Shown here: positions 1-9,403 of the stretch, in pieces
Position numbering within the stretch: the first letter of the stretch is position 1
Layout: every line of letters starts with the position of its first letter
NCBI GenBank assembly: GCA_006503535.1
Contig: QYRS01000004.1
Span: forward strand, 1 to 64,000
Direction: 5' to 3'
DNA from: Arthrinium phaeospermum
Lineage: Eukaryota > Ascomycota > Sordariomycetes > Amphisphaeriales > Apiosporaceae
DNA length: 64,000 bases
Made by a program: the position numbers and the translations under genes
Notes under the pieces: generated by a model
Told to the model about the DNA's origin: nothing
Seen by the model: the letters and a program-made list of their open reading frames with translations, nothing else
Database searches by the model: none

Positions 1-284
1 CCAATCCACAATCCCATACCGCGCCCCATCTTGAACGATAAGCTCGGTGTACCTCTTCTCGGGGGAGGTTCCGTAAGTAATAACGTAAGAAAGTCGATAA
101 TATTCCCTCCAAATCACAATCCTTTGCCGTACGAATCATCCGACCGCCGTCCCCGTCCCGTTCCTCCCGCCGTACACCACCCGCCGGGGAAGTAACCGCG
201 AACACCCGCCGTGAGCCTCGTACGGTATACCCCGTACGGCCCGTCAATCTTTCCCGGTTGTTCGCCAGCGTTACCGGCCCCGGT

Positions 285-3200
285 TCATCCGCAATCAAGC
301 AGGTCGTGCCGTCGTGTACAATCAACGCCCGTTGCTGGGACGTGCAATATATACACCCCCCCCGGACCCGTCGTACGGTAGACCGGAATCGCTCCACCTG
401 CTCCTGATCGTCTCGTCTCCCTTGCCGTACCACGGCCTGTTGCCAGGCTACCCCTTGATGCCGTGCCCGGGAGATGGTAGTCCGTTCCGTTTCGTCCGGG
501 TCCGGCCGTTTTCTCTTTCCTACCCGGTCCTCTTTTCGTACGGCAGAGGTCACACGCCGTCTCTTCCGGGCCGCATCGGATCCGTGTTAAATCGCCGTCC
601 ATCACCCGATCTAAGCAAACACGGCGGCAACCCCCGACCCCGTCCATATAATCCTGGATATTTTCATATCCGGCAGGAACAATCCGTGGAGGCTGGCTCG
701 TACGACCATTGAAACGCGCCGCAATAATACGGGACTCGGACCGTTCCCCGTCACGACCGGCCCGGCCGCTCTCCTGAACAAAGTCACGGAGTGTCCGGGC
801 ATACCCACATGGAACACGTATCGTACGTCGGCAAGATCCAAACCTAACGCGAGGGCACACAGTAGCAACAATGCACCCTCCGTCCTCGGTCCACCGGTGC
901 CGTACGCCGGACTTCTCCTCCTTCGTCCCGGTAGCGGCATGGTAAGCCGGACATCCGATCGCCTTCGCCACGGCCTCCGTCCCGGGACGGGTGAGACAAT
1001 ATACGATAACACGCGGCGGGGACAGAGTATTGACCACGGTAAGGACCTGTCGTACGGCTTCGGTAACCACGTATTCTTCCTTCTCGACCCAGGTAACGGA
1101 ATAGTAGAGGTTCGCCCGGACGGTACTACTCCGGAATATCTGAGTTCGCCGGAGGTCGATACCGATATTTCGGATAAAGGCCGGCATATCCTGAACGGCG
1201 AGGGTCGCGGTAAGGAAAAGAAGGGAACCCCGAATTCAACCATCGTACGACCAATCTCCTGCAACTGTGGCCGGAACCGGTATGACCCATCTAATCCACA
1301 TGGGCTTCATCGAGGACGACCCTGTCCAGTTGCCGGAACATAACGACCGTTGTACGTACTGTTGAAAGGCCTTAGTGGTAGTCGATTCAGGGTAACAAAT
1401 ACGACCTGAGCCTCTCGTATCTCGCCGTACGAGTATATCCACGAAGTAATACCGTATATCTTACACCGTCGGTGGAGGTCCTCCTCGAGAGATACCAGCG
1501 GTACGATAACGATAGTAATACCCTCGGCCGAGCAGAAGGCGGGGAGTAAAAAGGTAATACTCTTTCCACTCCCCGTCCCGGCGACATACAATACCGGACT
1601 TTGCCCTCGTACGAGACCTTGAATCACGGCTTCTTGCTGGCCACGGAAGCCGGCATCGGGTTGCTGGAGCATGAACCGGAGCATGGCGAGCATATTGATC
1701 CGGCGAAGGGTCTGGATCCGCTGTACCGCAATATCGTCCTGGAGCTCCTCGTACGGCCCCTTTATGGAATAACCATGGTCAACGGCAGAGGGAACGTCAG
1801 CCACCGGTGCCAGTCAATACTGATCGTCCGTTCCTGCTCCTGATGAGACCTCGTGGTCCGGAAAGGGTATCATTCGTACGAGCATATACCATGCCGTCCG
1901 TCTGGAGAGAGTGGGCGGCCTGGCGGGCATATACCGCGGCAAAGTTATCCTCTCCTGAGTCAGAGTCCGGAGATGAGTCATCGTACGGTACCGTCGGTCC
2001 TTTAAATGCCCCCTGAAGGAATTCCCGAGATATCGCAATAACGATATGCCGGTAATCGTGGATATTCAGCTTCACCCCCATCCACCGGAGAGAGGCGGCC
2101 TCGAGGCTCCGGCGCATCCGGTCCCGGTCCAGAGTGGTTCTCCGCCCTCCTCCCGTACGGCGGCCTTATCTCGTACCAGCTCCTTCCCGAATAGGAAGTC
2201 ACTCCGGAAAGAACCCCGGCCGGCAAGTCCGAGACACGTTTCCCAAAAGGGAAGTACTAACCAGAGGTATCGTACGAGGGCCGTCCCAACCTCGTCCGGC
2301 AGGTACCGATGGATAATCTTGACAGTCTGCTTCGATTGGGCCCCTTTATGGTAAAGGGTCATAAAACAGACAAGGCCCCTGGAAATAAAGATTTCCGGCA
2401 ACCGCCGTACGACGTGTTCCGGTGCCTTATACTGAAACCTCCGAAGCCCGGCCCGGCTGCCCTCCGGTAAAATGCATCAACAAAAGGAGCAATTCTCGGA
2501 ACCGGTCGACGAGGTCCTTATATCGCTCCAATTCCCGGGTTGAATAGTACTCCTATTAAACCACGCCGTACGTAAGTCCTTTTGTTGCTGGATACGTTGA
2601 GCGAGCCAATCTGGTCCCGTACAGCTGGTAAAGCAGGTATTCCGCGAATCGACCAAAAAGTTGTATTCCGGCCGGAAGTCGGTCAGGTCGTCCTGGACCC
2701 CGGCGAGAGATAAAGGGGGGAGGTCGGATTCGTCCTCGGCAAAGAGGAGGGATAGTATCGTACGACGGAGCTCACCCGTTATATTCTGGACGAACTGGAT
2801 GAACTGACTCATAGTAAACGATACCTTGCCGTACGTCACCTGTTGCCCGTCCCACTGGATATCTGCCGACGACGGCGTTTTGGACGCTATACCCATACCG
2901 TAAGACCGGGCTTCGAATATCCAATCTGCCGGCGAAGGGTCCGATTCGGCCGAAACGACGGTGAAATACCGGAATACCTTAGTTCGGACGACGGAGTATA
3001 AGGACGGGACTTCTTATCCTCCGTAGACTCCTTATCCTCCGCGGTACACTCGTCGTACGACTGTAAAAGGAGAAAGAGACGACCAATCTTGAGAACGGCG
3101 GAATATATAGGTATATTCGTAAGGGGGCAGCCAGTTCACAGTCTCCCCGGTAGTCCGGAGACCGAGAATACTCAACGCACTGAGTAGAACACTGTCGTAC

Positions 3201-4325
3201 GGCGATCTGCTAAGTATATGGTCGAAAAGAGAGAGAGAGAGGTTAAACAGAGTATATCGAGGTCGGAATACGCCGTACTCGGTACCGGTGCCGGATCCGA
3301 CTCGAAAAAGGCCTCGACGTCGTCGAGAGCGACTTGTTGGGCAGGGGTAAGCGAAAATGGAGGTATAGCCTCCTCCTCCCATACCTGCGTACGAAAGGTA
3401 ACCGATAACCTGTTTCCATACGTTGGTATAAGAGTTTCGGGTAGCATCCTCCATCAGGCCGGAAAAGGGGGTATTTGGCTTCTGGTCCCGGCTGCGTTGA
3501 TGGAGGAGGAACAGTACGGCCGATGGGACGGAGCTCGGGGTTGATATACCCTGGGCTCGTTGTACGATACGGTCGATACTCCGATATACATCCTGTAACT
3601 CCCGGCCATCAGAGGGGTCGGAATCGGGAAGCCACCCCTCGGCCGGCTTTAGGCTGACTCCCGTACGGAGGCGGATATGGTCATACCCCCGGAGATGTAC
3701 AGCCCAGCCGGTTCGGACCAGCCACGGATTCGGCTCGTGTTTGTGCCCTGTATCGATAACAGACCCCGTCGTACGCGTGAACTCGGCAGCCTGGGCTCGG
3801 AAGGTCTCGAGGACGGTATTCCGTACCGGAACCGGAGCCGGAGCGGCCGGGGTTACCTCGAAGTAGAAGCTCCCGGACCGGCCGGGAAAGAAGCGTTGGC
3901 AATGGACTCCGGTCCGCCACGGCCGGTATTGCGTACGGTCCCGCTCGGCTGCCTGGAGTCGGACGTTACCCCCCCTTTCCCAATGATTCTCCGCTATGTT
4001 CCGTACGGCAGTGTTTCTGAATCGATTTGATATGGGTATAAACACAGGGGCATTCGGTACAGGCATAGCCGTCGGTCCGAGGGGGGCCGAGAACGGAAAA
4101 GGGGGGGGAGGTAAAGGGGGGCCGGGGGAGAGCAGAGAGGTCGGATTGACGGGTAAACGCTGTTGGGACTTGGCGTACGGCGTGTTCAATATCTTTTCTA
4201 ATAGAAACAGGTATTGATCGATGTTTCGTACGCAAATGAACTGTTATTTCGTCCACGAGACAGGCGTGTTGACATGTCGTGCAGACGAAGACGTGGTATT
4301 CCTCTAGGAAGGTGAATGGATCCAT
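285..4325 (-). pseudogene. Telomere-linked RecQ-type DNA helicase, decayed
   Basis: Reading leftward from the ATG at 4325, the N-terminus has a CxxC...H...H zinc region followed by a second CxxC...H...H, as in OrsD/DUF3505-type proteins. A long middle region follows. The RecQ core then shows a Walker A motif (AGTGSGKS, near 1580), a DEAH box near 1302-1317, motif VI QESGRAGRDG near 750-780 and the RecQ zinc signature (R-x-C ... C-x-x-C) near 550-640. The reading frame changes repeatedly. For example, a missing C after the HVGMP segment near 800 puts motif VI out of frame with motif V, and an in-frame TAG lies at 1291-1293 just after DEAH. Family knowledge: such helicases sit in subtelomeres of many filamentous fungi. 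The C-terminal limit is not visible, since the last open frame ends at 285. Either a true pseudogene or an assembly with many indels. Confidence 0.8.
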
Positions 4326-4440
4326 AATAGAACAGGTAAAGAAGAGATAATGAAGAAGGAGAGAAGAGAGAGAAAGGAATAGGCGTCGTACGGCGGTATT
4401 TATAATACTGGATCACGATCCATCGCAGAAAATGCCTCAT

Positions 4441-4610
4441 GGAATCCTAGTCCACTTCTATGGAGTACATGGAGTCCTAGTCCACTTCTATGGAGTACAT
4501 GGAATCCTAATCCACTTCTATGGGGCCGTACGAACATGGAATCCTAGTCCGATTCCACTTTGAATTCTCAGGTCCCATAATATCTCTTGGAATGCTAGTC
4601 AGGTTCCATA
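4441..4610. repeat. 30-bp tandem repeat, GGAATCCTAGTCC family
   Basis: Three near-identical 30-bp units start at 4441, 4471 and 4501 (core GGAATCCTAGTCCACTTC, then TATGGAGTACAT). Shorter degenerate copies follow at 4537 and 4589. The same core recurs in direct orientation at about 7026, 7249 and 7290-7345, so the family brackets the DUF3716 gene and the tRNA-like gene. The array lies between the 5' end of the leftward RecQ remnant and the rightward units. No coding potential was seen. Confidence 0.75.
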
Positions 4611-4782
4611 CCATCGTACGATGACTCATGAACTTACATATATCGTCGCCGTCCCGAGCAATACCGGCGGTCTATCAAGACCAGCGCCAGGTCCGACCTT
4701 TTTATACCGGAACCGAACCTCCGACGTCACGGAGATCACGATCAACCGGCCGGCTCTCTTTTTAATACACGATGCACCTTAT

Positions 4783-5106
4783 CGTACGGTGACTCATCCA
4801 CGATATCCAACATGTTTGCTAGTGCCGCCGCCATCTCCAGAAAACACCGGCGGTGCCGCGAGGCTTAACCCGTCCCAAACCGCCGGCGCCGCGAGGGTCA
4901 CGATCGGCCGACCGGATATACCGCCAAATATGTTTGCTCCTCGCCGTACGGTGACTCATCCACGATATCCAATATGTTTGCTAGTGCCGCCGCCATCTCC
5001 AGAAAACACCGGCGGTGCCGCGAGGCTTGACCCGTCCCAAACCGCCGGCACCGCCGGTGTCACGATCGGCCGGCCGGATATACCGCCAGATATGTTTGCT
5101 CCTCGC
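4783..5106. repeat. Two tandem 162-bp units beginning with CGTACG
   Basis: Units 4783-4944 and 4945-5106 are nearly identical. Each starts exactly at CGTACG, followed by GTGACTCATCCACGATATCC, and contains mirrored CCGGCGG/CCGCCGG runs and a CACGATCGGCC stretch. A more diverged relative precedes them (4615-4782: CGTACGATGACTCAT and a GATCACGATCAACCGGCCGG stretch). The next CGTACG, at 5107, closes the array. Two differences of C versus T (for example AACATG/AATATG) separate the units near their start. Confidence 0.85.
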
Positions 5107-5585
5107 CGTACGATATATCCAATTGACTCACCTCCTTCATCTAATCCATCAATTGGTGCTCCACCAGGCGGGGTGACCCTCGTACGACCTTTTAATGATA
5201 CGGCAGGTACGCCACATCAACGGAGATACATCACCGGAAGTCCATCCGACCCACGCGCTCCTTCCCTCGATACGGCAGGTACGTCAATTTTGATGCTCTT
5301 TCCAGCCGATTCGGCAGGCACCAGAAATCAACTTTCGCGTCACTGCAACAGCCCAGCTGGCCAGTTGCCTACGTACGCCAATTGCCAATCGGTCCACCCT
5401 CCACCATCAACTTCCTTTCCGCACCAATTCCTTTCCGCATCAACCATCCCTCGTACGCCAGCTCCAAGTTCTCAACCTTTCAACTTCTCTCATTGCCATC
5501 ATCACCATCATCACCAAGGTACGTACGATTCCCCATCATCACATTTGATATTTCCGATTCCACATTCCCATTATCACCTTGGCTC

Positions 5586-5621
5586 CCTCGTCGGATCCCT
5601 CGTCGGATCCCTCGTCGGACC
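5586..5621. repeat. 12-bp tandem repeat, three copies
   Basis: CCTCGTCGGATC is repeated three times in a row (the last copy ends GGAC). It lies inside the low-complexity frame between two CGTACG sites. Confidence 0.8.
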
Positions 5622-6016
5622 TGGCCAATACCGCCTTCCAATTGATCCTCTCATCCGATTGCTCGTACGGCGGCCAATTGCCCGAGAGATATACCATCTG
5701 CCTTTTCCCGCTGTCACATCCGATCCGGTTACCTGCCCACCAGGTCTGCCACCATCACATCTCACCGAATTGCTCGATTGCAATACCCGTCGCCTGCCTT
5801 CTCTGTTACTGTACCTTATCCATCTCTCGTACGGCGATTGCTTGCCTTGTATTTCTGCTACCTACCTTCCGCACCTACCTTCTGCCACCATTCCCTCTCC
5901 CGACTACCTGGTCTCGAGATCTACTTCCTGCCATCACCGACGGATGGATGGAGCGACGCCGTCGATGCAGCCGTACGGCAATCACGATGGCTCGATGCTG
6001 ACGGGTCGCCTGACAG

Positions 6017-6697
6017 ATGTCGGCCAACCAGAACCAGCCAGCCAACCAGAACCATGGTGCCGACCCGAACGCCATCCCCGCGGGCGCCGGCCAATTGATC
6101 GTGAGTATCCCATCCTGTCTCTGGTATCATCTGACCTGCCGTACGACTAACACTTGGTGTATCTAGCTTGCACCTCCGCCTCCCGCCAACAATGGCTGGG
6201 CCCATCCCGATGTCGCGATTGCCCCCCTCGAAGACCAGAGTCCCTTCGTGATCCTCCCCGTCGGACAGCAGCAACTGGGGCGTTTCTGCCACAACAACCT
6301 CCAGCGTGCGGTCCTCGCCCTGCCCGGCTTCAATGTGTTGGTCGTACGACGGTTCATGTCGGCGGACCAGATCCTGTCCACCCGCCCGAGCTACATCAAC
6401 GGCCTGCTGATCGCCAGCCGTGGCCAGCTTCAAGATCCGCCCTGCGCGAAGTGCCAGCGACAGATGACCCTCAACGGCGGTTTCGCGAACCCGTTCCCAC
6501 GCTGCGTACGACTGCCAGGCCACTTCGGCGGGTGCTGTGCCAACTGTAAATGGGTCGACCATGCTGCGAAGTGTACGAAGACGGATGCCAACGTGGATGG
6601 GCAGAACAACGGTGGTCGTGGTGGTGGTCGTGGTGGTGCTGCTCGAGCGGCTCCGGCGCTGCTGGGAAGTGCTGAAAACCCGATCAATCTGGACTAA
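6017..6697 (+). CDS. Small Cys-rich DUF3716-type zinc protein
   Basis: Two exons, 6017-6100 and 6167-6697, give 204 residues. The intron has GTGAGT at 6101, a GACTAACAC branch site near 6144 and TAG at 6164-6166. The frame is kept across the junction (GAGQLI then LAPPPPANNG), which is why this start was chosen. A Gln/Asn/Pro-rich N-terminus leads to a compact Cys module at about residues 135-165: CAKC, then FPRC 16 residues on, then CCANCKW and a last Cys. This is the pattern of the fungal DUF3716 family, whose biochemical role is unknown. The C-terminus has a Gly/Arg-rich tract and ends ENPINLD. CGTACG lies in exon 2 twice (6343, 6505, both read as Val-Arg) and once in the intron (6140). A zinc-binding role is inferred. 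Confidence 0.7.
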
Positions 6698-7116
6698 TGG
6701 ATTGGAATCGTACGATGGGCCTGTATAATAGAGTAGTTGCGATGGTTTCGACAGTGGCCGATGAGCCGTACCCAGATGAATGATACCCATTTTGGTTCCC
6801 CTTACCTATTCTCTTCCGGTGATGTCGTCGTACGATGAGTGTTATGAAGTGGATGTGTGATACGTGACTAGCTTGGAGAGTGGCTTGGCATTCGGACGTC
6901 AAAAGCTTATTTTGACTGCACCCGATATCCCTCCCCTGTAGATCTGGCTGCAACGGAGATCCTGCAGGTACCCGAGATCCTATGCCTGTAGATCTCCGAT
7001 TTTAGCGTCGTACGACAGAGATCGAATCTATAGAACCTTAGTCAAATTCCATATATTCACCTTATATCAACCTTATTATCTCATACCTTTTCATCCAAAG
7101 ATGCAAGACCCACGAG

Positions 7117-7187
7117 GCTTATATGGTATAGTGGTAAATACGCCCTTCGAAAGAAGGGAGACCTGGGTTCAAATCCCAGTGTGAGCG
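7117..7187 (+). tRNA. tRNA-like gene, Gly-type body, no normal anticodon loop
   Basis: All arms except the anticodon arm are textbook. The acceptor is 7117-7123 with 7180-7186 (7 pairs, two G-T). The D stem is GTAT/ATAC with loop AGTGGTAA. The T stem is CTGGG/CCCAG with loop TTCAAAT. Internal promoter boxes are TGGTATAGTGG (A) and GGTTCAAATCC (B). The overall body resembles fungal tRNA-Gly. The anticodon arm is CCCTT-CGAAAG-AAGGG, a 6-nt loop that can close further to CCCTTC-GAAA-GAAGGG. There is no 7-nt loop with U33, so no anticodon can be assigned. The base after the acceptor is G. It may be transcribed but non-decoding, or a tRNA-derived relic. Confidence 0.7.
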
Positions 7188-7198
7188 TTTTTCTTTTT
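7188..7198 (+). terminator. RNA polymerase III T-run terminator
   Basis: TTTTTCTTTTT starts one base after the acceptor stem of the tRNA-like gene. This is the expected pol III stop and suggests the unit is still transcribable. Confidence 0.7.
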
Positions 7199-7285
7199 AA
7201 ATACCTTAAATCTCCGATTCCAGCGTCGTACGGCAGGTATCGAATTCATAGAACCCTAGTCAGATTCTATGAATATCATGGAATC

Positions 7286-7350
7286 GTACTACTATTCCGG
7301 CATGGAATCCTACTCCTATTCCGGCATGGAATCCTACCCCTACTTTTCCG
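7286..7350. repeat. 24-bp tandem repeat, GGCATGGAATCCTACTCC
   Basis: Two full units (TATTCCGGCATGGAATCCTA plus CTCC) and flanking partial copies. The core is again the GGAATCCTA sequence of the 4.4-kb array. ATGGAATCGTAC recurs at 7278 and 7380. This is the last repeat before the SNF2 fragment. Confidence 0.7.
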
Positions 7351-7417
7351 GCTGCCCCACGCCGCACGGATAAAATTCATGGAATCGTACAACGACTCTG
7401 AGTATACTATATGGTAG

Positions 7418-9403
7418 GTATACAACGCCGCCACGGGCTGCTTCATCGTCCGCCGCTCCATGCGAGACGCTGTCGAGTACACCGTCCCGGCCGATGGGGA
7501 GACGCCGGAAAAAGAGGAGCTCGCATATCCGGGACAGGACATCCCACCCTCCACCGTCATCACCGAGGAGCTGTCGATGAAGGGCTTCGAGGGCGACGAG
7601 GACGCGGAGAAGCTTCGTTTCATCACCAACAAGCTGTGGAAGAAGATCAATGTCGCCGGGGGCGGCGACGGACCCGTCCTGCCCGAGCTGGGGTCCATGC
7701 ATGGTGGCGACAAGGACAAGGACGCCCGCGTCAACCTGAATGTCCACCGCCACCTGCTCCTCACCGCCTTCGACCTGCGCACCCAAGAGGTCTTCACCAA
7801 CGAGGACAAGCTGAGCGGCAGCGTCACCGTCGACATGGTCGAGAAGGCCGTACGCACCAATACCGGCCCGAGGTCGACGCTTGCCTCCTCCAGGAAGGGC
7901 AAGTCCAAAGCCTCCAAGGACAAGGCGCCCACCCTGGGAGTTGAGCAAGTGGAGCATCTCCGGTCCCTGGATCCCGACGGCGGCCTGAACTACCTTTTCT
8001 TCCTTTGCGAGGCCAAGACGCGCATGTTCCCCCCCGAGCGAAGCAGCATGCTTAATTGGGCCATCGCCAAATCTCCCGTTCTCGCGCGCACCGTGGAGCT
8101 GGTCGTCGAGCACAACAAGAAGAACCTCCGCACGTTGATCATGGTGGACAACCAGTATTGCCAGCAGTAAGTACCCTCTGACCCCTCTGACTCTCTATCA
8201 ATTGATGCAGATTTAATTCTACATCAATTGATAGAGAATGCGTCTGGAATTCCTGCTAACCCGCTCGCTCTTGCCAGGCTTACCAAGGCGGTCCTGGAGA
8301 AGATCGGTTTCCGCGTCGGCTCCATTCGTGCCTCGGACAGCACCAGGGAGCGGGAGGACGCCGTCGACGAGTTCACCTCGGCGGACTCGGACATGATGGT
8401 CTTCATCATCAACGCGTCGACCAACGTTGCCGGCCTGAACTTGCATACCTGCTGCAGCCGCGGAATCATCGCGCAGTTCACCTGGAGTATCTCGATGCTC
8501 ATCCAGGCCATGGGTCGGCTCAGCAGAAATGGCCAGAAGGAACAGGTGATCTGGTACATCCTCAAGCTCAAGGACTCGTACTACGACGTGCAAGAGGACC
8601 GCATGTGCCGGAAGTATGCCGAGATCATCCGCAACGACGGGTACATGCCCGAGTACCTGAAGAGCCCCGTGCTCCAGCGCATCGTAGCCTACGAGCACAT
8701 TCGCGTTCTCTTGGCGCAATCCTTCAACCGCTTCGCCTGGTGCGCTCCCGGTGTCGACCCCCCCAGCGCCATTGAGGATTTCAACGACTACCGCATGCGT
8801 CGCATGGGCCAGTTCTACACCAGCATCGCCCAAATTCTCATGGTCCTGCCGGAAAGCCTGCAGGACGACGAGGCGTCCCTGGCCTACTTCATTACGGACA
8901 TTGCAAAGCGTTTCATGGACCAGGACGAGGATGTGGACGAGGACGAGGAGCGAGTATACGCACCCCCCACACTGGGCTGGATCGAGGAGCAGCTGGGGGA
9001 ACTCAAGGCCCAGCGGGCTGCCGAAAAGGCCACGCGCTCGGGCGGCTCCAAGGCCACCCGCTCGGGCGGCGCCAAGTCCGAGAAGTTCACTTTGGCCAAC
9101 TTGGTGGGCGACACGGACTCGGAGAGCGACGGCGAGGGCGGGGCCGGGAGACACGCGCTCCACCGCCTGGAGAAGAAGCACCAGCGTGAGAAGGACCACG
9201 TACTCAGGGAGGACGACGTATTTGAGGACATCTTCGTTTCTGAAGCGGATCTTCTCGAGAATCTCAAGATCCAAGGTGGCGAGGCGGCTGGGGACAAGGG
9301 CAGCGACGAGCCCAAGCCGGTCGTCGTCCAGAAACGGGATGACAAGGAGTACCGGGACCTGGAGGAGCAGATGGACGGCGCAGTGGAGGAGACCGCTAAC
9401 TGA
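7418..9403 (+). pseudogene. SNF2-family helicase, N-terminal half missing
   Basis: Exon 7418-8166 and exon 8278-9403, with an intron 8167-8277 (GTAAGT...CTAAC...CCAG, phase 2). The second exon has the SNF2 helicase C domain: INASTNVAGLNLHTC (motif V) and QAMGRLSRNGQKEQV (motif VI), then DSYYD. The C-terminus is acidic and Lys-rich. Nothing upstream encodes Walker A, DEAH or the rest of the first RecA-like lobe. The frame entering 7418 meets TAG at 7415-7417, which could be a splice acceptor or a stop. The CGTACG block and its repeats lie directly to the left, so the gene appears cut by that junction. The intron holds an inverted pair of the CAATTG palindromes. Without lobe 1 it cannot be a working translocase. 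Confidence 0.75.
8191..8240. repeat. CAATTG palindrome pair (hairpin) in SNF2 intron
   Basis: TCTATCAATTGATGCAGA and its inverted partner TCTACATCAATTGATAGAGA are centred at 8199-8204 and 8225-8230. Together they could fold into a stem of about 19 bp. First copies of a family confined to 8-25 kb. Confidence 0.8.

Follow-up and report, generated by a model that had tools for sequence, protein, structure and literature searches.

Why does one six-base palindrome, CGTACG, recur about every 145 bp through a block of fungal subtelomeric DNA? We addressed this question in a stretch of 64,000 nucleotides from Arthrinium phaeospermum (NCBI GenBank assembly GCA_006503535.1, contig QYRS01000004.1, positions 1 to 64,000 of the forward strand), here called the window, which is the left end of contig C4 in a genome of 48.4 Mb and 19 contigs. 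The window begins in a telomere-linked helicase (TLH) block of about 8.2 kb, of which near-identical copies stand at three contig ends (C4 left, C7 right and C1 right). The CGTACG sites of this block, which we call the lattice, form an evenly spaced array that is confined to the element in the source genome, is independent of reading frame and has a footprint in the helicase proteins of two clades. We consider it likely that they are recognition sites kept at the DNA level.

Number and spacing of the sites

The features needed to follow the analysis are these:

128..7232, no strand: CGTACG lattice, 50 sites with a mean gap of 145 bp and a preference for the form YCGTACGR
1..7417, no strand: subtelomeric TLH (telomere-linked RecQ helicase) block, telomere side cut by the contig end
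1..4325, minus strand: telomere-linked RecQ-like helicase gene, with an OrsD zinc-finger part at its start, DEAD and Helicase_C (domains called on the C7 copy)
4783..5112, no strand: two tandem 162-bp copies, with CGTACG at the head of each
6167..6697, plus strand: open frame with a DUF3716 domain, 2 sites

The original prediction, made from the letters of the window, had counted 50 CGTACG in 7.1 kb against six in the rest, with gaps that averaged about 145 bp, never exceeded 275 and fell below 60 only twice. Our recount gave the same picture: the window holds 56 sites, 50 of them within 128-7232 and 6 elsewhere, and the gaps have a mean of 144.9 bp, a maximum of 274 and only two values below 60 (14 and 53). 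When hexamers in 1-7300 were compared with those in the rest of the window, CGTACG ranked first in enrichment. By region, 30 sites lie in 1-4350, 3 in 4351-4620, 10 in 4621-6100 and 4 in 6698-7417, the remainder being one in a proposed DUF3716 intron and two in the DUF3716 exon.

That the spacing is more even than random, as had been claimed, was borne out. At the majority positions of the three block copies the coefficient of variation (CV) of the gaps is 0.345, whereas the CVs of 100,000 uniform placements averaged 0.98 and went no lower than 0.577. The order is short-range only (successive-gap correlation -0.03); no long-range phase was found, the best period, 147, being equalled or bettered by 86% of gap shuffles. 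Even-numbered gaps make up 37 of the 49 consensus gaps in 128-7232, which may be chance.

The preferred form YCGTACGR, also noted originally, is seen at 37 of the 50 sites and occurs 2,310 times in the whole genome. The flanks are symmetric, with Y before and R after the word and a weaker G/C preference one step further out. These flanks bear on the idea that the lattice is what remains of an old tandem array of about 162 bp whose unit heads survived. Both 162-bp copies are headed by CGTACG, as originally stated, and several gaps lie near 162. Against this, a satellite should have units that are alike beyond the word, and the 50 sites carry little flank information beyond 4 bases; only short or two-copy repeats were found, the order persists when the two 162-bp tandem gaps are dropped (CV 0.354), and site positions turn over between species (see below). 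Tandem duplication as the source is contradicted by the unlike flanks, and we consider this origin extremely improbable.

Coverage of the block is nearly complete: 88.7% of positions are within 75 bp of a site (65.3% for random placement) and 98.3% within 100 bp (75.5% for random placement). Sites with one mismatch (n=28) avoid the true sites, lying 58 bp away against 43.5 bp for random points (P 0.003), and occupy the larger gaps of the lattice. Even spacing together with distant near-misses is the pattern expected from selection for coverage, in which a site is kept where none is near.

Spacing of this kind could also reflect a chromatin array, in which the same kind of binding serves chromatin state and not copying: a factor drawn to a single site in each nucleosome-sized stretch would silence, open, position or insulate the subtelomere. 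The mean gap of 145 bp fits, 7 of the 47 non-tandem gaps fall in 158-166 where 3.1 are expected after smoothing (P 0.03), and there is weak helical phasing at 10.5-10.7 bp (P 0.02-0.05 in the 9.5-11 bp band). A precedent is found in Plasmodium, where the SPE2 arrays of the subtelomeres have PfSIP2 as their own binding protein (PMC2829057). However, a wide scan for helical phasing gives P 0.12-0.46, long-range phase is absent, and the lattice belongs to the element, not to the subtelomere at large. We regard the chromatin array as a rather unlikely explanation, though one to be taken seriously.

Confinement to the helicase block

We searched the whole genome for forward matches to a pattern of three successive CGTACG, each separated from the next by 130-160 bases. 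There are 26 matches, 25 of which fall in the three TLH blocks (9 at the C1 end, 8 at C4 and 8 at C7), the sole match outside being at C1:1680590. Of the 38 contig ends, 16 were read over 3-10 kb each besides the window, and the other 22 were covered by the pattern search only; the ends read, other than C1 right, C4 left and C7 right, have 0-2 CGTACG each. The proposed check of other contig ends found the lattice again in the C7 and C1 right-end blocks, and the hexamer is far sparser in the rest of the window and at the other ends read. Clustering at chromosome ends is expected of a subtelomeric binding-site array, and all but one of the three-site matches lie in contig-end blocks. A DNA uptake sequence should instead be over-represented genome-wide, whereas the rest of the window has only 6 copies and the pattern is block-confined but for one match.

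The three block copies differ mainly by indels. By BLAST, window 8-7418 is 99.3% identical to C7 with 4 mismatches, and window 64-7417 is 98.6% identical to C1 with 3, the other differences being indels; mismatches among the copies number 0-4. A MAFFT alignment of the three gave 28 substitution columns, which we take as alignment noise beside indels. C4, C7 and C1 share their inner border to within one base, and the sequences diverge beyond it. On the other side the C7 copy continues into an A-rich stretch and then a TTAGGG array.

In the window the helicase gene has broken frames and is cut by the contig edge (its 30 sites include those in the spacer to 4350). The C7 copy keeps a 1,378-aa open frame with DEAD and Helicase_C, the OrsD match sitting in a different, overlapping upstream frame. 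The broken frames of the window are probably assembly errors, since the copies differ by indels and few mismatches. The block belongs with TLH elements both by gene, a RecQ-like helicase with an OrsD/DUF3505 zinc-finger part whose best homologues are TLH proteins (the best among the matches listed being from Apiospora saccharicola, 70% identity over 88%), and by place, with TTAGGG at C7, copies at C1, C4 and C7, and mutated copies at C3 and C9.

Homogenisation of the copies between chromosome ends would suit pure molecular drive. Like Chi or a bacterial uptake sequence, the word would then be favoured in some copying or recombination step between ends and would accumulate as a by-product, otherwise useless to the element. 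Uptake sequences are described as evenly spaced and inside genes (PMC1939737), and near-miss forms are enriched here, for example CGTAAG, which occurs 5 times in 7.3 kb and 3 times in the other 56.7 kb. But such drive requires an unknown word-specific step in fungi, and the same word in two separate clades suggests a conserved reader. We think it improbable.

Maintenance at the DNA level

The lattice is independent of reading frame. The 28 sites in the C7 helicase gene are divided 12/8/8 among the three frames, and further sites lie in non-coding DNA of the block. CGTACG encodes 12 of the 21 Arg-Thr pairs, where codon use away from the lattice would predict 0.9. The original prediction had read the sites as DNA-level selection or copying, and this is well supported by the three frames, the non-coding sites, the codon choice, the turnover of positions and the two TLH clades. 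It had also placed the sites in several frames of a RecQ remnant; the several frames stand, while a mere remnant does not agree with the long open frame of C7.

Base composition, avoidance of repeat-induced point mutation (RIP) or codon bias could in principle leave CGTACG behind in a gene that avoids CpA and TpG, as the word contains neither. Region 1-4412 is indeed CpA/TpG-poor and TpA-rich (CpA 0.66 and TpA 1.21 of expectation). Yet 4413-6150 is undepleted (CpA 1.08) and has the lattice, CpA-free codings of Arg-Thr other than CGTACG are rare, and in a ranking of palindromes over 221 TLH proteins (see below) the first 13 entries are all CGTACG. These three results contradict composition, RIP or codon choice as the source, and we give this account almost no credence. 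In itself, the composition of the helicase gene region looks like the result of prolonged RIP pressure, with the C7 frame remaining open.

Mutated copies at two contig ends

RIPed copies of the block stand at the C3 right end (L035) and the C9 left end (L036). An alignment with scoring that favours C-to-T/G-to-A changes showed that they are changed almost only in this way: other substitutions number 0-1 in each bin of 400 bases between 800 and 7999, and 2-3 in the final one. Within the lattice span, C3 has lost 2,508 and C9 2,807 of 4,001 C/G. Just 1 of 51 lattice sites survives in each copy. A role in protection against RIP is therefore rejected, because lattice-bearing copies were RIPed and lost 50/51 sites each; nor are the sites a product of RIP, made by or spared from C-to-T change, as they were destroyed here and occur where CpA is undepleted.

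The palindrome contains two CpG, and could be a symmetric site for a methyltransferase or endonuclease, the lattice then marking or protecting the element. In the RIPed copies the lattice CpG C was lost more often than others (77/404 kept against 1,144/2,175). However, GTACG elsewhere in the copies mutated about as readily (6/29 kept; mirrored CGTAC 8/29, YCGTA 16/43), the effect of the lattice on C loss is small after context correction (-0.57, 95% -1.23 to -0.05), and copies that bore the lattice were RIPed nonetheless. A modification or enzyme site is accordingly very improbable in our estimate.

A nucleosome-like wave of C survival around the sites, which would have favoured the chromatin array, was sought in these copies and not seen. 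There is one local deviation: CT is kept at 0.34 within 10 bp of sites against 0.18-0.27 farther away. The C3 and C9 copies preserve a clear natural record of the contexts that RIP prefers, as the letters kept show: 1-6% of CA, 19-27% of CT, 35-47% of CC and, outside the lattice, 50-55% of CG.

Footprint in other telomere-linked helicases

We collected 220 TLH proteins from two protein searches (120 of 194 and 120 of 306 matches listed) and scanned 221 TLH proteins for 2,080 hexamers, comparing the residues able to encode each word in any frame with composition to give a z score. CGTACG has z >3 in 21 of the 221 proteins, 2-3 in 3 and <2 in 197. The top single score is 6.5 against 6.0 for the best unrelated word, so what gives the scan its weight is the recurrence of one word across related proteins, not any single score. 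No other palindromic word stands out in these proteins; the next is TATATA in P0151 (4.6) and P0022 (4.2), probably low complexity. Carriers include Apiospora saccharicola, Trichoderma austrokoningii, T. gamsii, Pleurostoma richardsiae, Penicillium pancosmium, P. manginii, P. roqueforti and P. cf. griseofulvum.

In the carriers the readings of CGTACG (RT, VR, SY and YE) are the top four of 400 dipeptides. Forward and reversed words number 138:33 for RT, 121:41 for VR and 84:30 for the Y-type in the Sordariomycete set, and 286:78, 132:43 and 82:50 in the Penicillium set, against 1,439:1,243, 1,264:1,474 and 466:665 in the 197 other TLHs. Word spacing is a test separate from these counts: with the source species left aside, the two carrier sets have mean CVs of 0.67 and 0.78 against 0.96, and none of 2,000 was as low.

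In a FastTree phylogeny the word is carried by 8 of the 9 proteins in a Sordariomycete clade and by 13 of the 15 in a Penicillium clade. For a topology test we removed the word's own columns and kept 40 selected rows, among them 14 of the 21 carriers; a quick tree and LG+G4 were used, with groups named after the first tree. Each lattice group was one side of a branch, and joining both costs 390 log units (approximately unbiased test, p 1.6e-55), which rejects a single joint lattice clade. On these alignments the word would have arisen twice, or once with many later losses.

At aligned positions of the 28 sites in the C7 gene, a compatible word is found in 20/23 for Apiospora P0001, 11/18 for P0005, 14/27 for P0002, 14/28 for P0003, 14/27 for P0004, 9/17 for P0013, 7/25 for Pleurostoma and 2/26 for P. 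pancosmium; four lattice-free TLHs have 1-4 of 24-27. In the Penicillium set P0131 (42% identity) keeps 11 of the 40 words of P0122 and has 34 others. Judged from these proteins, sites turn over between species while totals stay.

A proposed explanation

That the word has left a footprint in helicases from two separate lineages of fungi suggests its recognition by a protein that handles the element. Our leading explanation, held tentatively, is that the lattice consists of sites for a putative binding protein, used to mark the element as self and to favour its copying between chromosome ends. CGTACG would be recognised by a DNA-binding protein specific to it, which probably acts as a symmetric dimer and could be either the element's own zinc-finger protein or a host factor that has been co-opted. 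Sites would be kept throughout the TLH element so that nearly every point is within about 100 bp of one. The bound protein would mark the element and favour copying from one end to another, copies with full coverage would win, and the word would accumulate. Binding is what we infer from the array; the copying role is a further step and our best guess. Among the readings listed originally, a binding site or self-identity mark is the likeliest class, while the near-nucleosome interval fits the mean gap only, there being no long-range phase.

Several results weigh against this explanation. Because the dipeptide test displays the very score by which the 21 carriers had been selected, it shows the frames and is not independent. 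Word spacing in the source species' own protein is not significant (CV 0.89 against 0.96, P 0.36), because chance words dilute the signal. No residue signature common to both lattice clades was found (8 columns passed, some being the word itself), and no residues common to both point to the TLH zinc fingers. As 197 of the 221 TLHs have no footprint, the word is not something that TLHs generally require. In a second species the lattice is known from protein footprints, not from DNA. Finally, a fungal-looking TLH contig filed under an Erythrobacter metagenome-assembled genome (L055, 30% identity) has 2 CGTACG in 9.8 kb; it was the one of 53 candidate stretches in the prokaryote contigs searched. 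In the viral contigs searched, alignment A1 gave 9 distant helicase loci, which were set aside, and A2 gave none.

Other features of the block and its neighbours

Two further features lie near the inner border:

7117..7187, plus strand: tRNA-like sequence without a clear anticodon
7277..7342, no strand: 24-bp tandem repeat just inside the inner border, with related sequence at the C11 and C17 ends

The original prediction placed sites in a DUF3716 exon and intron. The exon has its 2 sites, but the intron is not established, since the simplest GT-AG join is out of frame and has 2 stops. A literature search found no paper on DUF3716, most subscription papers being outside its reach.

A frame with Helicase_C but without DEAD, at window 7418-9403, starts at the inner border and may have been cut by the block. 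The C11 right end (L069) has telomere repeats, a short terminal sequence common to C7 and border-like repeats; the block was not found in the 4.9 kb read there, and this end is likely an unoccupied site for it. The AT-rich start of C6 (L041) weakly resembles the block's inner part over 2 kb (57%) and is probably another RIPed copy.

Relation to known systems

Subtelomeric TLH/RecQ elements are already known, as in Colletotrichum higginsianum DHX_G198 (PMC5576322) and the TLH-containing regions of Fusarium (PMC12857005). Like these, as far as the parts of both accounts consulted describe them, the present element has an OrsD/DUF3505-type helicase beside telomere repeats, several end copies and the same orientation to the telomere; unlike them, it has a word lattice, which those parts do not mention. 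The Colletotrichum and Fusarium TLH proteins in our set have no CGTACG footprint (z <2). A hexamer lattice through the coding sequence of helicase elements was not found in the literature search, and searches on CGTACG with subtelomeres or as a fungal palindromic motif gave only papers that seem unrelated.

Two other systems are comparable. The SPE2 arrays of Plasmodium falciparum are also subtelomeric arrays of a short motif, there bound by the dedicated protein PfSIP2 (PMC2829057), whereas here a palindrome runs through coding sequence with even spacing and the binder is putative. Bacterial DNA uptake sequences (PMC1939737) are likewise short words, partly in genes, described as evenly spaced and accumulated at the DNA level; they are genome-wide and tied to DNA uptake, whereas the lattice is palindromic, far denser and confined to one eukaryotic element.

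It is conceivable, though we advance it with considerable reserve, that TLH elements of filamentous fungi carry, throughout their own genes, a palindromic identity code with near-nucleosome spacing and a dedicated reader, evolved at least twice, which drives copying between ends: a eukaryotic selfish element with a self-mark like an uptake sequence. The lattice bears on the role of telomere-linked helicases and on their spread between chromosome ends. Its defined word, as a TCGTACGA array, may serve as bait for the putative binder, and recoding the sites would test their role. DNA-level selection can be read here from protein sequences alone, and scans of this kind might uncover words concealed in further elements.

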